A stretch of 41,928 nucleotides of DNA, taken from Sphingomonas sp. (GTDB lineage: Bacteria; Pseudomonadota; Alphaproteobacteria; Sphingomonadales; Sphingomonadaceae). The stretch covers positions 626-42,553 of the forward strand of contig NZ_JACDDV010000012.1 of NCBI RefSeq assembly GCF_013816785.1. The letters are read 5' to 3'. The notes under the pieces are model-generated. The model searched no databases, had not been told where the DNA came from, and saw nothing but the letters and a program-made list of their open reading frames with translations. The translations under genes and the position numbers were made by a program. Numbering within the stretch: position 1 is the stretch's first letter; each line of letters opens with the position of its first letter. Positions 15,244 through 41,901 of the stretch are shown one piece after another.

Positions 15244-16388
15244 TGCCGCGTCAGCTCCCGCCCGACGATCATTCTCATCACCTGGTTGGTGCCCTCGAGG
15301 ATCGAATGGACGCGGAGGTCGCGCCAGAATCGCTCGATCGGATAATCCTGCAAATAGCCGTAGCCGCCGTGCAGCTGTAGCGCCCGGTCGACCACCGAGC
15401 TTCCAGTGTCAGTCGCCAGCCGCTTGGCCATCGCCGCAAATTTGGTCTTGTCGGGGTCGTTGGCGGTGACCTTGGCCGCCGCGACGTAGAGCAGCATTCG
15501 CGCTGCCTGAAGCTCGGTCTCCATGTCCGCGAGCATGAACTGGGTGTTCTGGAAATCGGCGATCGCCTTGCCGAACTGCTTGCGCTCCTTGGTATAGTTG
15601 ACGGCCTCGTCGAGGCAGCGCTGCGCCCCGCCCAATGAGCAGGCGCCGATGTTGAGCCGCCCGCCGTCAAGGCCCATCATGGCAATGCGAAAACCCTCGC
15701 CTTCGCCGCCGACGCGGTTGGCGACCGGCACCCGGACCTCATCGAAATTGACCTGCGCCGTCGGCTGCGAATGCCAACCGAGCTTCTTCTCCTGCGCGCC
15801 GAAGCTGACGCCTGGCATATCTTTTTCGATCACCAGCGCGCTGATGCCCTTGGGCCCGTCCTCACCGGTGCGGACCATGGTGACGTATACCTCATTCTCG
15901 CCGGCGCCTGAAATGAACGCCTTCGAGCCCGAGACGACATAGTCGTCGCCGTCCTTAACCGCCTTGGTCTTGAGCGCCGCCGCGTCGGAGCCGGACGACG
16001 GTTCGGTCAGGCAATAGCTGCCGATCCGCTCCATGCTGATCATGGAGGGCAAGTACTTCGCCTTGACCTCGACCGATCCGAAGCGGTCGATCATCCAGCT
16101 CGCCATATTGTGGATCGAGATGAAAGCGCTGGTCGACGGGCAGCCGTAGGCCATAGCCTCCATGATCAGCGCTGCTTCCAATCGCCCGAGCCCGATCCCG
16201 CCGCTCTCCTCCGACACATAGATCGACCCGAAGCCCAGCTCGGCCGCGGCGCGGATCGTATCGCGCGGGAAGATATGCTTCTCGTCCCACTCGGCCGCGA
16301 GCGGGGTGATCGCGTCGGCGGTGAATTTCTGCGCCATCTCCTGGATCTGGCGCTGGTCGTCGGTGAGGTCGAACTGGGTCGCCATCAT
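15240..16388 (-). CDS. Acyl-CoA dehydrogenase, likely isobutyryl-CoA dehydrogenase
   Basis: FAD-dependent acyl-CoA dehydrogenase of 382 aa, probably oxidising isobutyryl-CoA to methacrylyl-CoA in valine degradation. Key segments are YCLTEPSSGSDAAALKT (FAD/substrate binding), ERKQFGKAIADFQ, QLHGGYGYL and the catalytic Glu365 in SILEGTNQV. The pathway role comes from its neighbours. It begins ATGATG, overlapping the stop of the SDR gene. Its codons for QFDLTDDQRQIQEMAQKF and the next few residues lie in a 72-bp segment repeated exactly 888 bp upstream. The present start therefore appears to have been rebuilt after an insertion. Confidence 0.93.
   Translation of the reverse strand: MMATQFDLTDDQRQIQEMAQKFTADAITPLAAEWDEKHIFPRDTIRAAAELGFGSIYVSEESGGIGLGRLEAALIMEAMAYGCPSTSAFISIHNMASWMIDRFGSVEVKAKYLPSMISMERIGSYCLTEPSSGSDAAALKTKAVKDGDDYVVSGSKAFISGAGENEVYVTMVRTGEDGPKGISALVIEKDMPGVSFGAQEKKLGWHSQPTAQVNFDEVRVPVANRVGGEGEGFRIAMMGLDGGRLNIGACSLGGAQRCLDEAVNYTKERKQFGKAIADFQNTQFMLADMETELQAARMLLYVAAAKVTANDPDKTKFAAMAKRLATDTGSSVVDRALQLHGGYGYLQDYPIERFWRDLRVHSILEGTNQVMRMIVGRELTRQ
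16306..16377. repeat. 72-bp direct repeat, copy 1 (in acyl-CoA dehydrogenase)
   Basis: Identical over 72 bp to 17194-17265 and in the same orientation. It encodes residues from QFDLTDDQ through TADAIT of the full-length acyl-CoA dehydrogenase. Together the two copies bracket the SDR gene. Confidence 0.95.
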
Positions 16389-17129: not shown

Positions 17130-17270
17130 TTAGCGAGCGCTCATGGCGAATGCGGTCTTTAGGCTGATCGATGACAACTGTCCGGCGAACGGAGTGATCG
17201 CGTCGGCGGTGAATTTCTGCGCCATCTCCTGGATCTGGCGCTGGTCGTCGGTGAGGTCGAACTGGCTCAT
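17130..17270 (-). pseudogene. Truncated 5' copy of the acyl-CoA dehydrogenase gene
   Basis: A 46-codon ORF starting at the ATG at 17270. The first 27 or so residues (MSQFDLTDDQRQIQEMAQKF, then TADAITP) match the N-terminus of the dehydrogenase at 15240-16388. It then diverges (FAGQLSSISLKTAF) and ends in TAA only 4 nt before the SDR start codon. This is best read as the original 5' end of the dehydrogenase gene, cut off by insertion of the SDR gene. It may still be translated as a leader peptide coupled to the SDR gene. Confidence 0.8.
17194..17265. repeat. 72-bp direct repeat, copy 2 (in truncated leader copy)
   Basis: Exact 72-bp match to 16306-16377, same orientation, 888 bp apart. It marks the distal border of the inserted SDR segment. 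Beyond the repeat on the 3' coding side only weak similarity to the full-length gene remains. Confidence 0.95.
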
Positions 17271-19842: not shown

Positions 19843-19923
19843 GGGATACCTCGTGATTTTGATTTGGCCACGCCCTAGCCAAGCGCGCTTCCGAATGCCA
19901 GCGTGCGCCGACGAGGAGAATAT
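19843..19923. promoter_or_regulatory. Divergent promoter region, mmsA / M28 peptidase
   Basis: An 81-nt spacer between divergent start codons. It must carry the mmsA-side promoter(s) and the peptidase promoter unless these lie inside the genes. It contains the Shine-Dalgarno sequences of both genes (GAGG on the minus strand, GAGGAG on the plus strand). I could not pick out a clear -35/-10 pair. Confidence 0.5.
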
Positions 19924-21345
19924 ATGACGCGTTCGATGTTGCTTGCCGCCCTGCTCATCACCACCGGGGCCGCCGTTGCCGCGCCTCGACCGGGCGGGCC
20001 CGATGCGAGGTTGGCGGCGATCGCCAAAGGCGTCGATTCGCAGCGGATGAAGGCGACCGTCGAGAATCTGGTCGGCTTCGGCACTCGCCACACCCTGTCG
20101 TCGCAAACCGATTCGAAGCGCGGGATCGGCGCGGCGCTCAACTGGGCCGATGCTGAGTTCAGGAACCTCGGACTGCCAACCGTTCGGCCGAGCGACGTCG
20201 TCACCGGCAAGCGCGTGCCCAACCCCACCAAAATCACCGACATCCTCGCCATCCAGCGCGGGACCGAGCGGCCCAACGACGTGGTCATCATCTCCGGCCA
20301 TATCGACAGCCGGGTGACCGACGTGATGAACTCAGCCGCCGACGCGCCCGGCGCCAACGACGACGGGTCGGGGACGGCGGCGGTGCTGGAGGCGGCGCGG
20401 GTGCTGTCGAAGCACAAGTTTCCCGGCACCATCGTCTACGCCGCGCTGATGGGGGAGGAGCAGGGGCTCTTGGGCGGCAAGGTGCTCGCCGACTATGCCA
20501 AGGCGCAGGGCTGGAACGTCGTCGCCAATCTCAACAACGACATCATCGGCAACAGCTGCGGCTCTGACGGGGAGTGCGATGCCAAGACCGTGCGCGTTTT
20601 CTCCGAAGGCCCGCGCTGGCAGGGGCGTGAGGAACTGGCCGCGCAAATCCGCAGCCTCGGTGGGGAGAATGACAGCCCGTCGCGCAACATCTCGCGCTTC
20701 CTCGATAGCCTCGCCGAGCGCATCCCGGCGATCGGCCTCGATGTCCGGCAAATTTGGCGCAACGACCGCTTCGGCCGTGGCGGCGACCATACCGAGTTGC
20801 TCAACGCCGGCTATCCCGCGGTCCGCCTGTCGGTCGCGGTCGAGAATTACGACCAGCAACATCAGGATGTCCGCGTCGAAAAGGGCAAGCGCTACGGTGA
20901 CACCGTCGCGGCCATGGATTTTCCCTATCTGGCCAAGGTTACCAAACTCAACGTCGCCGCGCTCGCCGCCCTCGCCAGCGCCCCGCCGCCGCCCGAACCG
21001 ACGGTCGAGGGGGCGGTGAGCACCGACACGGAAGTTAGCTGGCTTCCGGGCATAGAGCGCGATTTCTACGTGCGCTGGCGTCGAACGGATACAAATCAAT
21101 GGCAGGCACAGCTGAAAGTACAGTTTTACGATGGCCGTGATCAGGGTCCGCCCAATAGCTGTTTCAAATCTACCCAGTACCCGGCGGGCGAATGCCACGT
21201 CGTCCTGCCCCACATCCGCGTCGACGACTGGGTGTTTGGAGTCTCTTCGGTCAGCAAGGACGGCTTCGAAAGCCCGGTCGCCTCGGCGGTGCCGGGCGGG
21301 GCGTTCAAGCCCTGGGTCGAGCCGGCCAAAAGCCCCTCCCCTTGA
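19924..21345 (+). CDS. M28-family zinc aminopeptidase, exported
   Basis: Secreted di-zinc peptidase of 473 aa. A cleavable signal peptide (MLLAALLITTGAAVAA) precedes the M28 catalytic domain. Probable zinc ligands and catalytic residues are His126 (ISGHID), Asp146 (GANDDGSG), Glu178/Glu179 (MGEEQG), Asp206 (NNDIIGN) and His289 (GGDHTE). A C-terminal domain of about 120 residues follows. The start at 19924 has GAGGAGA just upstream. The last residues (SPSP) and the TGA stop lie inside the left hairpin of the DUF559 repeat element, so the natural C-terminus may have been altered by that element. Confidence 0.92.
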   Translation: MTRSMLLAALLITTGAAVAAPRPGGPDARLAAIAKGVDSQRMKATVENLVGFGTRHTLSSQTDSKRGIGAALNWADAEFRNLGLPTVRPSDVVTGKRVPNPTKITDILAIQRGTERPNDVVIISGHIDSRVTDVMNSAADAPGANDDGSGTAAVLEAARVLSKHKFPGTIVYAALMGEEQGLLGGKVLADYAKAQGWNVVANLNNDIIGNSCGSDGECDAKTVRVFSEGPRWQGREELAAQIRSLGGENDSPSRNISRFLDSLAERIPAIGLDVRQIWRNDRFGRGGDHTELLNAGYPAVRLSVAVENYDQQHQDVRVEKGKRYGDTVAAMDFPYLAKVTKLNVAALAALASAPPPPEPTVEGAVSTDTEVSWLPGIERDFYVRWRRTDTNQWQAQLKVQFYDGRDQGPPNSCFKSTQYPAGECHVVLPHIRVDDWVFGVSSVSKDGFESPVASAVPGGAFKPWVEPAKSPSP

Positions 21346-21368
21346 TGGGGAGGGGTTGGGGTGGGGTG
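21333..21368 (+). repeat. Left hairpin arm of DUF559 element
   Basis: A perfect 9-bp stem (CCCCTCCCC at 21333-21341, GGGGAGGGG at 21347-21355) with loop TTGAT, followed by TTGGGGTGGGGTG. It agrees with the reverse complement of the right arm at 30 of 36 positions; the differences are shifts within C/G runs. Confidence 0.9.
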
Positions 21369-21391
21369 ATGCTGGACGTAAAGCAATACGC

Positions 21392-21774
21392 TTGAAGCAT
21401 CATCCATCACCCGGCGCCGTCACACGCGCCAGACACTTGCGCCGCGACATGACCGATTCGGAACGCGCCCTCTGGCGCTTGCTCCGCGAAGCTTTTCCCA
21501 AGGAGCATTTCCGCCACCAAGTGTCGATCCGTCATTTTATCGCAGACTTGCCAGCCATCGCGCGAAGTTGGTGATCGAGGTTGATGGCGGGGAGCATAAT
21601 GACGAAGTCGATGTGGCGCGGACGGCGGTTATCGAGCAAAAAGGATATTGCGTGATCAGGTTCTGGAATCACGATGTGCTTGGCAACACGGACGGAGTCT
21701 GGACAGTGATCGATGCTGCGCTGCACGGGCGTCACCCCCACCCAACCCTCCCCCATCAAGGGGGAGGGCTTTAG
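21392..21774 (+). pseudogene. DUF559 endonuclease-like gene, frameshifted
   Basis: DUF559 proteins are small and related to Vsr/restriction-endonuclease folds. The first frame, from TTG at 21392 or ATG at 21449, reads ARHLRRDMTDSERALWRLLR, then FRHQVSIRHFIADL, and stops at 21574. The second frame resumes with KLVIEVDGGEHNDE (the acidic catalytic-type core), VIRFWNHDVLGN and DGVWTVIDAAL, and ends in TAG at 21774. Restoring one T at about 21548-21549 would join them as FIADFASHRAKLVIEVDGG, so a one-base deletion or a sequencing error explains the break. The C-terminus HPHPTLPHQGGGL is encoded by the element's right arm. Confidence 0.8.
21733..21768 (-). repeat. Right hairpin arm of DUF559 element
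   Basis: CACCCCCACCCAA, then a perfect 9-bp stem (CCCTCCCCC at 21746-21754, GGGGGAGGG at 21760-21768) with loop ATCAA. It is inverted relative to the left arm. Its last bases lie 8 nt before the rnr ATG and look like a strong Shine-Dalgarno sequence. Confidence 0.9.
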
Positions 21775-21775
21775 C

Positions 21776-24043
21776 ATGCCCCGCAAACCTCCTCCCAGCC
21801 TGCCCACTCCCAAACAGATCCTCGATTTCATCGCGCAGTCGGGCCAGCCGGCCGGCAAGCGCGAGATTGCGCGCGCGTTCGGGCTGTCGGGGCATGAGAA
21901 GATTTTGCTCAAATCGCTGCTCAAGGACATGGCCGACGAGGGGCTGATCGATAGCGCCCCCGGCCGCGCGTTCCACAAGGCGGGCGGGGTACCGCGCGTG
22001 ACGGTGTTGCGCGTCATCTCGGTCGACGATGGCCAAGTGTGGGCGACGCCCGAAAGCTGGCACGCCGACACGCCCGCGCCGCGGCTGCGCGTGATTGAGA
22101 AAGGGCGGCGCTCGGCGCTAGCGCTCAACGACCGCATCCTCGCGCGGACCGAGGAGGCTGGGAAGGGACATGTCGCCCATGTCATGAAGACGCTCGCGCG
22201 CTCGGCCGAGTTGGTGCTGGGCGTGGTGCGCAAGGAGGGCGACCGCCACTTCCTGACCCCGGTCGACAAGCGCGAGCGGCGCGAGCTGACGATTTCGGAC
22301 TTGAAGGATGCACAGCCCGGCGACCTCGTGCTGGCGGAGCCGTCGGGCCGACCGCCGCGCACCACGGCCCGGGTCGACGCCATCCTCGGCGATCCGTTCG
22401 CGCCGCGCAGCTTCTCGATGATCGCGATCCATAAGCACGGCCTCAGCGACGAATTTCGCGACGAGGCAATCGAGGAGGCTGGGAGGGTGGCGAAGCTGCC
22501 ACTCGGCGACCGCGAAGACCTGACGCACCTCCCGATTGTCGCCATCGACCCCGAGGACGCGCGGGATCATGACGACGCTATCGGGGCGGCGGCGCGCGAG
22601 GATGGCGGTGGCTGGGACGCGATCGTCGCGATCGCCGACGTCAGCTTCTACGTCCGCCCCGGCTCGGCGCTTGACAAGGAAGCGCGCGCGCGCGGCAACA
22701 GCGTCTATTTTCCCGACCGCGTGGTGCCGATGCTCCCCCACGAACTGTCGTCGGACATCTGTTCGCTGAAGCAGGGCGAGGTCCGCGCCGCGATTGCCTG
22801 CCACTTGCATGTCGGCAAGGACGGTGCGCTTAAAAGCTGGCGATTCTCACGTGCCAAGATTTGTGTGACCGCAAACATTGCATATGAGGATGCGCAGGCG
22901 GCGATCGACAATTTGGATGAGGAAAGCTTCGAAGTGGCCTCATCGCCCTGCTCGATGCCGGCAGTGGACGGACCGGTCTCGCGCGACCTCGTCGACAAGG
23001 CGCTCAAACCCCTTTGGGCTTGCTGGAAGGCGTTGCTCGCCGCGCGCAACAAGCGCGATCCGCTCGAACTCGACCTGCCCGAGCGACGAGTGGTGCTCGA
23101 CGAGAAGGGGCGGATCATGTCGGTCGCGCCGCGCGAGCGGCTCGACGCGCACCGGCTGGTGGAGGATTTTATGATCGCCGCCAACGTCGCCACGGCCAGG
23201 GCGCTCGAAAAGAAAAAGGCGCCGGTGATGTATCGCATCCACGAGGCGCCGGGCCGCGAGAAACTGGTCGCGCTGAAGGACTATCTCGCGACCTTCGGGG
23301 TCGAATTCGCGCTCGGCCAAGTGATCAAGCCGGCGACCTTCAACCATATTCTGGATCGCGTCGGCGAGCATGACGCACGGCCCGAGATCATGGAACAGGT
23401 GCTGCGGACGCAGATGCAGGCGCGCTACGGGCCCGAACCGCTCGGCCATTTCGGGCTGGCGCTGGCGAGCTATGCTCATTTCACCTCGCCGATCCGGCGC
23501 TACGCCGACTTGCTGGTCCATCGCGCGCTGGTTGGGTCCCATGGCTTGGGCGAGGGCGGCTTGCCCAAGGAGGATGCCGATAATTTCGCGGCGGTAGGCG
23601 AGCAGATTTCGATGCTCGAACGCCGCGCGATGGAGGCCGAGCGCGAGACCATCGACCGTTACGTCGCCGCCTTCCTCGCCGACCGCGTTGGGCAGATTCT
23701 CAAATGCCGGATCAGCGGCGTGCAGCCGTTCGGCTTCTTCGCCACAGTCGAAGGGCTGGGCGGAGACGGCCTCGTCCCGGCGGCGATCCTCGGCAACGAA
23801 TATTTCCGCTATGACGAGGCGGCAAAAGCGCTGGTCGGCGAGCAAAGCGGCGAGACGTTCAAGCAGGGTCAGAAGATCGAATTGAAACTGGTCGAGGCCA
23901 ATCCGGCATCGGGTGCGCTTCGGTTCGAACTGCCCGAGGGCAAGTTCGCCGCGCCGCCGCGCGATCGCCGCGACCGCACCGTCTCGCGCGGCCCCCGCCG
24001 CGGCCGTCCCGCGAATATTCGGCATCAGGGCCGCAAGCGTTAA
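21776..24043 (+). CDS. rnr: Ribonuclease R
   Basis: Processive 3'-5' exoribonuclease of the RNB family (755 aa) that degrades structured RNA. It has an N-terminal winged helix (about 10-65), cold-shock domains, the RNB catalytic centre AIDPEDARDHDDAIG (Asp258, Asp264, Asp266, Asp267) and a C-terminal S1 domain (GQILKCRISGVQPFGFF). A basic tail rich in Arg follows. The ATG at 21776 (MPRKPPPSLPTPKQILDF) is chosen. A frame open to 21713 would translate the repeat arm. The GGAGGG eight nt upstream belongs to the right arm of the DUF559 element. Confidence 0.95.
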   Translation: MPRKPPPSLPTPKQILDFIAQSGQPAGKREIARAFGLSGHEKILLKSLLKDMADEGLIDSAPGRAFHKAGGVPRVTVLRVISVDDGQVWATPESWHADTPAPRLRVIEKGRRSALALNDRILARTEEAGKGHVAHVMKTLARSAELVLGVVRKEGDRHFLTPVDKRERRELTISDLKDAQPGDLVLAEPSGRPPRTTARVDAILGDPFAPRSFSMIAIHKHGLSDEFRDEAIEEAGRVAKLPLGDREDLTHLPIVAIDPEDARDHDDAIGAAAREDGGGWDAIVAIADVSFYVRPGSALDKEARARGNSVYFPDRVVPMLPHELSSDICSLKQGEVRAAIACHLHVGKDGALKSWRFSRAKICVTANIAYEDAQAAIDNLDEESFEVASSPCSMPAVDGPVSRDLVDKALKPLWACWKALLAARNKRDPLELDLPERRVVLDEKGRIMSVAPRERLDAHRLVEDFMIAANVATARALEKKKAPVMYRIHEAPGREKLVALKDYLATFGVEFALGQVIKPATFNHILDRVGEHDARPEIMEQVLRTQMQARYGPEPLGHFGLALASYAHFTSPIRRYADLLVHRALVGSHGLGEGGLPKEDADNFAAVGEQISMLERRAMEAERETIDRYVAAFLADRVGQILKCRISGVQPFGFFATVEGLGGDGLVPAAILGNEYFRYDEAAKALVGEQSGETFKQGQKIELKLVEANPASGALRFELPEGKFAAPPRDRRDRTVSRGPRRGRPANIRHQGRKR

Positions 24044-39021: not shown

Positions 39022-41901
39022 ATGACCGAATTGGCCAAAACTTTCGAACCCGGCGTCATTGAGGCGCGCTGGTATGCCCATTGGGAGGCCAGCGGCCAGT
39101 TCCGGCCCGAGCGACTCGACGCCACCCCCTTCACCATCGTCATGCCGCCGCCCAACGTCACCGGCAGCTTGCACATCGGCCATGCGCTCGATGTCACACT
39201 GCAGGACATTTTGACCCGCCATGCTCGGCTGCAAGGGAAGGATGCGCTGTGGGTGGTCGGCACTGACCATGCCGGAATCGCCACGCAGATGGTCGTCGAA
39301 CGAAATCTCGACAGCCAGGGCATCAAGCGCGCCGAGATCGGCCGCGAGGCGTTCCTCGAGCATGTCTGGGAATGGAAGGCGCAGTCCGGCGGCCAAATCA
39401 CCCAGCAGCTCCGCCGCCTCGGCGCCAGTTGCGACTGGGCCAACGAGCGCTTCACCATGGACGAGGGCTTTTCGAAAGCCGTCACCCATGTCTTCGTCGA
39501 GCTGCACAAACGCGGGTTGCTCTATCGCGACAAACGGCTCGTCAATTGGGACCCCAAATTCCAGACCGCGATCAGCGACCTCGAAGTCGAGCAGCGCGAG
39601 GTCAACGGCAAGTTCTGGCACTTCCGCTATCCATTGGAAGACGGCAGCGGCTTCATCGCAATCGCGACGACGCGGCCCGAAACGATCCTCGGCGACGGAG
39701 CGGTCGCGGTGCATCCCGACGATCCCAAATATGCGCACCTCGTCGGCAAGCGCTGCCTGTTGCCGATCGTCGATCGACTGATCCCGATCATTACCGACGC
39801 GCATGTCAGGATGGATTTCGGGTCGGGCGCGGTAAAGATTACCGCGGCGCACGACTGGAACGATTATGAGGTCGCGCTGCGCCATCCCGCGGCGAACATC
39901 CCGTTCATCAACCTGCTCAACGCCGACGCGACGATGAGCGACAATTGCCCACCGGAGTATCGCGGCCTCGACCGCTACCAAGCGCGTGAAAAGGTCGTCG
40001 CCGATTTCACCGTGCGCGGGCTGCTCGACAAGGTCGAGGACCATGTCCACATGGTGCCGTTCGGCGACCGTTCGGGGGTGGTGATCGAGCCATGGCTGAC
40101 CGACCAATGGTATGTCGATGCTAAGACGCTGGCCCAGCCGGCGATCGAGGCGGTCAAGTCCGGCGCGATCAAGATCGTTCCCGAAACCTGGGCCAAGACC
40201 TGGTTCAACTGGCTCGAGAACATCCAGCCGTGGTGCGTCTCGCGCCAACTGTGGTGGGGGCATCGGATTCCGGCGTGGTACGGTCCGAAAGACAGGGGGA
40301 TCGGTATTCCCGCACCGGGAGAGAGTTGGGCCAATGCATCGACGGCGTTTGATGAGACCTTCGTCGCCGAAACCGAACAAGATGCCAAACAGGCGGCCGC
40401 ATCATATTATTCTGAGCAAGTCGGTGAACGGGAAATCGTGGTTTGCGCTGACCGTGGAGAGGCGCTTTGGAAAGTGCTTTCAAAAGAAATCGACGTCGAG
40501 CGTCAGCGCCCCATCTGGCGCGACAACGACGTGCTCGACACTTGGTTCTCGTCTGCCCTCTGGCCCTTCGCCACCCTCGGCTGGCCCGAGCAGACCGAAG
40601 ACCTCAAGCGCCACTACCCCAATGACGTGCTCATCTCGGGCTTCGACATCCTGTTCTTCTGGGATGCGCGGATGGCGATGCAAGGGATCGAGTTCATGAA
40701 GGAGGTGCCGTGGAAGACGCTCTATCTCCACGGCCTGGTCCGCGACGCGGCGGGCCAGAAAATGTCCAAGTCGAAGGGCAACACGGTCGATCCGCTCGGC
40801 CTGATCGATCGCTTCGGCGCCGATGCGCTGCGCTTCACCATGGCGGCGATGGAAAGCCAGGGCCGCGACATCAAGCTCGATGAGAAACGCGTCGAAGGCT
40901 ACCGCAACTTCGCCACCAAACTGTGGAACGCCGCGCGCTTTCTTCAGGGCAACGGCGTGGGCGCTTCAACGTCAATCAAGGCGCCCGACGCCACGCTTCC
41001 AGTCAACCGCTGGATTATTGGCGAGGTGGTCGACACCTTGGCCAAGCTCGACAAGGCTTTCGCCGAGCTACGCTTCGACGACATGGCCGACGCCATCTAC
41101 CATTTCACCTGGGGCAGTTTCTGCGACTGGTATGTCGAGTTCATTAAGGGTGTTGTGTCCCCCTTCCCGCAAGCGGGAGGGGAAGAGCCGCGCAGCGGCG
41201 AAGGGGTGGGGGCGTCGGAAGGCGCAACTTCCCCCACCCCCAACCCCTCCCGCGAGCGGGAGGGGAGTGAAGAGACCAAGGCCGTCGCCGCCTGGGCGTT
41301 CGACCAGATCCTCGTCATGCTCCACCCGCTGATGCCGTTCATCACCGAAGAGCTGTGGCACTCGATGGGTGAGCGGCCCTACGACCTGATCGTCGCTAAG
41401 TGGCCGGAGCCCGAGGCGCAGCGTGACCTGCCAGCGACGGCCGCCATCGACGGCCTGATCGCGATCGTCACCGAGGTCCGGGCGGTACGCGCCGAGCTCA
41501 ATATCCCGTGGACCGCGATTCTGGTTCCACACGTTATTGGCGGCGACGCGGCGATGACTGACCGACTGACGAGCAATGCCGCGACGCTGTCACGCATGGC
41601 CAAGCTTGGCGCACCAGTGGCGGCGGCCTCGGTCCCCGCCGGATCGGCACAGATTGGGGTCAGCGGCACCACCATCGCGTTTCCGCTCGAAGGCGCAATC
41701 GACCTCGACACCGAGAAGGCCCGCCTCGCCAAGGCCATCGCCGCTGCGGAGAAAGACCGCGACGGCCTCGCCGCGCGGCTCGCCAACTCGGCGTTTGCCG
41801 AGCGCGCTAAGCCTGAGGCTGTCGCCAAGGCGCGCGAGGACCACGACTCCCGCGCCTCCGAGGCCGAGCGGTTGGCGGCGGCGCTGGCGCGATTGGGCTA
41901 A
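39022..41901 (+). CDS. valS: Valyl-tRNA synthetase with repeat-derived insertion
   Basis: Charges tRNA-Val (959 aa). The class I motif [14 protein letters not shown] has HIGH at 51-54, and KMSKS is at 580-584. The editing domain ([18 protein letters not shown]), the anticodon-binding domain and a C-terminal coiled coil are present. Two unusual inserts are visible. Residues about 420-490 ([16 protein letters not shown] through [13 protein letters not shown]) form a long connector in more AT-rich DNA. Residues about 713-749 ([16 protein letters not shown] through NPSREREG) are encoded by a GC-rich palindromic repeat read in frame. Both sides of the second insert align with normal ValS ([10 protein letters not shown] and [17 protein letters not shown]). 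Confidence 0.96.
41161..41265. repeat. GC-rich hairpin repeat inserted in frame in valS
   Basis: A compact inverted element. It has a left hairpin (41161-41182, CCCTTCCCGC / GCGGGAGGGG), an internal GCCGC/GCGGC hairpin, an inner inverted repeat GGGGTGGGGG (41203-41212) and CCCCCACCCC (41231-41240), and a right hairpin (41244-41265, CCCCTCCCGC / GCGGGAGGGG, perfect 10-bp stem). Its arm layout, a hairpin followed inward by a G-rich tail with TT/AA between, matches the arms of the DUF559 element at 21333-21768. Confidence 0.85.

Follow-up and report, generated by a model that had tools for sequence, protein, structure and literature searches.

A DUF559 nuclease gene between facing BoxC-type repeat arms in Sphingomonas, a candidate mobile element with gene-less relatives

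Introduction

RAYTs occur as one enzyme copy per type, EDxHD homing endonucleases belong to introns or inteins, and BoxC repeats were discovered in the 1990s. In Escherichia coli K-12, BoxC forms five inverted pairs, always combining a type A with a type B repeat (PMC4666352). Formation of a triplex by this motif was demonstrated in vitro; footprinting in vivo did not support stable formation (PMC4666352). As far as the available part of that 2015 survey goes, the surroundings of the E. coli sites revealed no mobility activity, and the question of where the motif came from was left unanswered (PMC4666352). On the protein side, a DUF559 gene has been assigned to the EDxHD homing endonucleases (PMC9403480), and VsrA of Caulobacter, a DUF559 protein, has been linked in vivo to the DNA damage response, which was read as mismatch repair (PMC12907096); both statements reflect only the accessible portions of these sources. 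No paper linking DUF559 to repeats was found in a literature search that covered few subscription papers and no bioRxiv preprints.

The DNA analyzed here, referred to as the window, is a stretch of 41,928 nucleotides from a Sphingomonas genome. On inspection of its letters alone, two facing hairpin arms around a single DUF559 gene had been proposed to form a self-contained repeat-mobilizing unit resembling the relation between RAYT transposases and REP sequences, with the DUF559 protein in the enzyme role (here called the original prediction).

Results

Facing hairpin arms around one DUF559 gene were borne out, as the two arms are 44 nt long, 84% complementary, and fold as hairpins (Table 1). 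With a spacing of 356 nt, they are the joint-longest inverted repeat among the 25 window-wide matches listed out of 54, the other equally long pair being only 73% complementary with 25 kb between its halves. Both arms form 10-bp hairpins, with z scores against shuffles of -3.60 (left) and -3.27 (right); 0 of 200 and 2 of 200 shuffles, respectively, folded as well. Translation of the open reading frame (ORF) at 21568-21774, which carries the C-terminal part of DUF559 and has its stop at 21774, agreed with the suggestion that the right arm, read on the plus strand, encodes the C terminus of the protein (HPHPTLPHQGGGL). Both DUF559 pieces exceed the profile cut-off, placing the gene in PF04480; in contig numbering, the N-terminal part lies at C45:22047-22178, the window offset being 625.

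Table 1. Positions of the features discussed, in window numbering
Feature	Position	Strand	Details
Aminopeptidase-like ORF, upstream neighbor	19903-21345	+	Weak NCBIfam match to LapA, below cut-off
Left arm, L-type end	21329-21372	+	AAAG + hairpin CCCCTCCCC/GGGGAGGGG + mirror purine tract GGGGTGGGG
DUF559 (PF04480), N-terminal part	21422-21553	+	Profile positions 5-49, E 1.2e-7
DUF559, C-terminal part, different frame	21550-21723	+	Profile positions 49-108, E 1.1e-13
Right arm, R-type end	21729-21772	-	AAAG + hairpin CCCTCCCCC/GGGGGAGGG + mirror purine tract GGGTGGGGG
Ribonuclease R, downstream neighbor	21776-24043	+	E 5e-178
valS (valine--tRNA ligase), host of gene-less element	39022-41901	+	ORF
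Gene-less two-armed element, another arm type, within valS	About 41157-41269		In frame

As the two DUF559 pieces lie in different frames, and the ortholog at the same site in a relative (L094; E = 3.3e-35) is unbroken over 127 codons, the window copy is a frameshifted remnant, barring an assembly error. A DUF559 gene is thus present between the arms, as the original prediction had it, but its frameshift had gone unnoticed. The architecture of a self-contained mobilizing unit likewise stands, but because of the frameshift the window copy is not itself a working one, unless the sequence is wrong or its decoding unusual. The best explanation of the window, which we think probable, is that it contains a single full-length but degenerate copy of a mobile element that is widespread and measures about 0.42 to 0.45 kb.

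The last codons of the upstream ORF fall within the left arm, and the ribonuclease R ORF starts directly after the right arm; its match is just under the equivalog cut-off and over that of the VacB/RNase II family. The proposed comparison of occupied and empty sites was carried out here and in valS. At the window site, the unit was present in one of 20 relatives (L094), several arms were present in another (L095), and no tailed arm was found in the other 18. The enlarged gap in L095 contains two gene-less pairs, one extra arm, and a DUF559 match, while in five of the 18 arm-less relatives (L096, L097, L102, L106, and L112) the spacers are just 21 to 77 bp. A different repeat, of the GTCATTGCGAGC..GCAATCC type, was identified in the gap between the peptidase and ribonuclease R genes in L103, L107, L108, L110, and L112 (only partially in the last), and a short repeat of the TTCAGCATGAC type at the same intergenic site in L098 and L113. 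Elsewhere in the window, an 84-nt direct repeat (16297-16380 and 17185-17268; 96% identical) was found to be the start of an acyl-CoA dehydrogenase-like ORF (named by eye) that is duplicated upstream.

The second, gene-less repeat noted in valS is real and has the same architecture, but its arms differ in sequence and it is no copy of the window unit. These arms also fold less convincingly (z scores of -1.78 and -1.96), and the element adds 36 codons relative to the empty form, KGxxDxET, which was present in 26 of the 30 loci read. Differing insertions fill the site in four loci: that of the own genome, L185, L186, and L206. In place of the insert at window positions 41151-41269, L206 carries another palindromic repeat type and L186 a 36-nt insert, and the spot is an insertion-tolerant site in an essential gene. 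Elements like that in valS are scattered through other genomes of the genus. In the own genome, a second arm family (CCCTCCCGCTCGCGGGAGGGG) is present on contigs C45 (window 41244-41264), C70, C76, and C81, with variants on C44 and C91. By eye, no DUF559 unit with CCCTCCCGCTCGCGGGAGGGG arms was identified there, and the enzyme of this arm family may have been lost from the genome.

Whether arms accompany DUF559 genes in general, a check that the original prediction had called for, was assessed by aligning the left flank of each gene with the reverse complement of its right flank. Loci scoring at least 36 (our own cut-off) were counted as armed, and windows elsewhere in the same loci served as controls. 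In a first look at 33 loci, the median score of real flanks was 66, compared with 30 for flanks swapped between loci and at most 28 for in-locus controls; fair scores of swapped flanks are as expected if the arms of different elements resemble each other. The enrichment was found in each of the three samples scored against this cut-off. Within the taxonomic family of the window's genome, 63 of 68 distinct loci were armed, as were 12 of 28 loci across the phylum, versus the same 5 of 1,067 control windows; of the named loci, 63 of 80 were armed, versus 4 of 961 control windows. The family loci comprised the best matches of a family-wide search, to which L094, the own genome, and the armed genes of seven DUF559-rich genomes were added; the phylum loci were the best matches of a phylum-wide search; and the named loci were the best 80 of 571 relatives, picked by protein similarity alone, with overlap possible between the named and unnamed samples. 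The named loci span alpha-, beta-, and gammaproteobacteria, Rickettsiales, three Chloroflexi bins, one Chlamydiae bin, and one Rokubacteria bin. No arms were detected by the flank test at 5 of the 68 family, 16 of the 28 phylum, and 17 of the 80 named loci. All five DUF559 genes of the own genome are armed, one just reaching the cut-off, and the DUF559 reading frame stops within or past the right arm in 59 of the family's 63 armed elements.

DUF559 was present in 102 of 119 genomes sampled in the family and in 116 of 329 in the phylum. The latter 329 genomes were searched with a strict pattern that closely follows the BoxC/TM consensus as published. The pattern was identified in 73 genomes and DUF559 (E <= 1e-10) in 86; both were present in 56, DUF559 alone in 30, the pattern alone in 17, and neither in 226. 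DUF559-bearing genomes held 2,303 of the 2,801 pattern copies, and the reversed pattern, used as a control, gave 5 matches in three genomes. Stratification by the 14 taxonomic families containing both kinds of genome (170 genomes) gave an odds ratio of 38 for co-occurrence (p about 1e-12), although the test is not tree-based. Between 54 and 131 triplex motifs occur in each of four genomes (G242, G325, G345, and G481) that lack a strong DUF559 match; G325 and G345 are less than 90% complete.

The arm consists of a GC-rich hairpin followed by an inward purine tract that mirrors the purine strand of the hairpin. To score this, the inner purine tract was compared with the purine strand read backwards, with A allowed opposite A or T. 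The 63 DUF559 elements provided 104 usable arms, whose mean score under this antiparallel rule was 0.969 (perfect in 88), versus 0.849 when tails were swapped between elements (top of 200 swaps, 0.872). Gene-less arms (n = 63) scored 0.912 versus 0.827 swapped (top swap, 0.848), with 23 perfect, and the window arms obey the rule with their CCCCTCCCC and CCCTCCCCC stems. As related elements are not independent, no probability is given for these statistics. A parallel third strand was rejected, its scores of 0.883 (own) and 0.853 (swapped; top swap, 0.872) differing little beside the antiparallel ones. The mirror tract changes along with the hairpin stem, as if evolution had kept a DNA triplex rule. 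The arms meet the published BoxC/PIT/TM consensus of a hairpin and a third purine strand; judged by sequence, the arm is BoxC or PIT, the motif described as an intrastrand triplex, its triplex not having been shown in cells. In an unsystematic look by eye, the GTAG/CGTC tetranucleotide was not seen in the arms inspected, a purine tract being found there instead.

To survey arms irrespective of the gene, four 400-kb samples (1.6 Mb in all), selected as containing DUF559, were searched for a hairpin with a purine tail. This identified 117 tailed arms, with none in one 3-mer shuffle per sample. Neighboring arms formed 32 facing gene-less pairs with a gap of up to 150 nt, 6 back-to-back pairs, and 7 same-strand pairs. 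Gene-less pairs of two facing arms with 20 to 141 nt between them are therefore common, and it is the inverted doublet that is the common form, as membership among REP/RAYT-like systems would require. Four pairs of facing arms were 150 to 600 nt apart, and all four enclosed DUF559; of the 9 DUF559 genes that the samples contain, the strict rule bracketed only 4. In the own genome, window-type arms recur as gene-less pairs on C7, C22, C43, C60, and C69 and as a partly degenerate copy on C6. The L end of the unit (CCCCTCCCC) is not quite the same as its R end (CCCTCCCCC), and an L end was paired with an R end in all six gene-less elements in which a strict search recognized both ends (three in the own genome and three in G053), as well as in the window unit and the L094 unit. 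Exceptions were identified in G053, namely, a DUF559 unit with two R ends and one further gene-less element, missed by the search, that looks R-like at both ends. No target-site duplication stood out in 36 elements (mean match, 2.64 versus 2.28 in shuffled pairings; top null, 2.86).

Arm sequence was also found to co-vary with the DUF559 protein, as the original prediction had suggested checking. Arm and protein distances were correlated across 63 elements (Mantel rho, 0.37; top of 999 permutations, 0.195) and across 84 within-genome pairs (rho, 0.41; 0 of 999 permutations as high). In 33 of 39 elements, the arm resembled the one carried with the nearest protein of a different genome more closely than it did the mean of the genome that it came from, and in 26 of 39 more closely than it did any arm of that genome. 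Repeat type thus follows enzyme type among DUF559 elements, as in a REP/RAYT-like system, and does so more weakly when gene-less elements are compared with resident genes. Of 32 gene-less elements, 10 matched resident DUF559 genes versus 2.7 expected, a result reached in 124 of 9,999 permutations and only moderate. At three clustering thresholds, 25, 28, and 30 of the 32 matched a resident gene in type, which was reached by 115, 820, and 466 of 4,999 permutations; the 25 matches compare with 15.1 expected. Armed DUF559 copies within eight genomes are 32 to 68% identical, and no near-identical gene-bearing copies were found, unlike the situation for an insertion sequence; there is therefore one copy per type.

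Using the DUF559 profile as a query against the PDB, matches were obtained to 3hrl, a DUF559 protein (E = 8e-41), to I-Bth0305I (3r3p; 4e-4), and weakly to Vsr (0.8). A structure model (mean pLDDT, 78.5) ranked the PDB relatives in the same order by fold comparison. Eleven columns are invariant in 63 DUF559 sequences, including D52, E63, D65, and H69; the Vsr-like fold with conserved acidic and His residues is what would be expected of an EDxHD homing endonuclease. The Y1 HUH transposase profile (PF01797) had no matches in the own genome. A role as a defense system was rejected, with merely weak partial PADLOC matches for two of four proteins. A plasmid or phage vehicle was likewise rejected, one query protein matching 44 of 72,556 plasmid and 2 of 50,697 phage records, though diverged members could escape such a search.

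In E. coli, the DUF559 gene ycjD has a degenerate arm at its 3' end only, and the protein ends with RRSPSP in repeat-like sequence. It was rejected as a clean occupied/empty site, as an efflux operon is present there in two ycjD-less strains read. Of 5,426 E. coli genomes, 3,361 contain 80% or more of the ycjD region, which spans 1.5 kb (sapF region; L063, L114, and L115). The BoxC site between pstA and pstB was occupied in 16 of 40 evenly drawn records, with 92 bp missing in 23 and another match in 1. In an alignment of four alleles (L375 and L378 to L380), each junction of the occupied form carries a copy of the 8-bp direct repeat ACACGGTT; the other form has a single copy, which fits insertion or deletion alike. 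The tusA-zntA BoxC site was too rearranged for an empty site to be read.

Discussion

The association of DUF559 with the arms and its breadth, arm-protein co-variation, the mirror-tract rule, the shared ends, and the occupied and empty sites are observations. The reading that we favor, with a probability of roughly 0.7, is that DUF559 acts as the mobility nuclease for a class of element that is RAYT/REP-like yet unrelated to RAYT/REP and that BoxC-type repeats are its nonautonomous derivatives; neither movement nor action of the enzyme has been shown. The RAYT/REP-like relation originally proposed is supported: it passed both of the tests named as able to refute it, those of enrichment near DUF559 genes and of occupied versus empty sites, and has gained a co-variation of arm and protein. 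DUF559 doing the moving remains an inference.

In the most likely scheme, the nuclease acts in cis on its own unit and in trans on gene-less elements sharing both ends. The purine tract can fold over the hairpin to provide a third, antiparallel strand, and DUF559 would recognize the end so folded in single-stranded DNA, for example, in the lagging-strand template, and cut at its border. The element might then be copied or rejoined elsewhere, perhaps via host repair or replication, and gene-less pairs, together with single arms left by pair decay, would make up the BoxC, PIT, or intrastrand triplex motif repeats. That folded ends are recognized and cut by DUF559 is likely, but there are no binding or cutting data; binding and cutting of the arms, the single-stranded substrate, and the direction and chemistry of movement are all inferred. 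We know of no strand-transfer or joining chemistry for Vsr-type nucleases, which is why strand joining by host repair or replication is considered possible.

DUF559 could instead be a homing-endonuclease-like selfish gene that cuts DUF559-less alleles and spreads by repair, with the arms being either its target or borders that protect it, and another process giving rise to the gene-less repeats. After a DUF559 protein, the solved structure most closely related to it is indeed I-Bth0305I, and the assignment of one DUF559 gene to the EDxHD homing endonucleases (PMC9403480, as far as accessible) points the same way. We nevertheless consider this unlikely: the window gene lies between two whole ORFs, with no intron setting and no Rfam match in window positions 20800-22300 (inteins being outside that search), window-type arms occur on several contigs, and the gene-less elements have the same paired ends and are more numerous in the samples than gene-bearing ones. 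It is also quite improbable that the repeats are moved by an unidentified host or transposase activity and that DUF559 genes are mere passengers captured between arms. The 17 of 329 genomes with the pattern but no strong DUF559 match would suit such a view, whereas DUF559 being the sole gene found between facing arms (4 of 4) and the co-variation of arm and protein within genomes speak against it. Terminators or regulatory hairpins framing a Vsr-like DNA repair gene can be set aside almost entirely, since, for all that hairpins stand at both gene ends and Caulobacter VsrA is tied to mismatch repair in what is accessible of PMC12907096, the same paired arms occur without a gene, even in frame within valS, the mirror tract co-varies with the stem, which a terminator does not need, and a terminator scan of window positions 21200-21900 found none.

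Preferring the reading of DUF559 as a mobility nuclease, a candidate enzyme family can be named for BoxC-type repeats, and a likely role offered for DUF559. A bolder claim, on which we would put even odds, is that DUF559 founds a new class of bacterial mobility enzymes, being a Vsr-fold nuclease that reads intrastrand-triplex DNA ends and moves its own unit along with many gene-less elements. If true, DUF559 would be the source of the BoxC/PIT/triplex repeats in hundreds of genomes and would add a type of enzyme with no relation to any transposase class that we know. The element appears new in kind, its enzyme type and end structure lying outside the mobile-element classes that we know, while its lifestyle is like a known one.

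That lifestyle is closest to REP/REPIN sequences with their RAYT (TnpA-REP), which likewise comprise small inverted doublets and single arms (PMC3116915, PMC8266576, and PMC3733652), an enzyme gene flanked by its own repeats, and a repeat type that follows the enzyme type, to judge from the accessible parts of these sources. The enzymes differ, DUF559 being a Vsr-like PD-(D/E)XK nuclease and RAYT a Y1 HUH transposase, as do the arms, which in DUF559 elements carry a triplex-capable mirror purine tract and no GTAG tag that could be seen by eye. MITEs and insertion sequences also have inverted ends and gene-bearing and gene-less forms, but DUF559 elements show no target duplication that stands out in our sample, have diverged gene copies, and encode no known transposase family. 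EDxHD or Vsr-like homing endonucleases such as I-Bth0305I (3r3p) are related in sequence and fold and are selfish nucleases, whereas DUF559 units are free-standing, with inverted ends and gene-less relatives. With BoxC/PIT/TM repeats the motif itself is shared: the E. coli consensus is nearly the pattern used here, and the K-12 pairs are inverted, each with two different end types (PMC4666352). The portion of that source available gives no mobility gene or origin for the motif (PMC4666352), whereas here it forms the ends of a DUF559 element.
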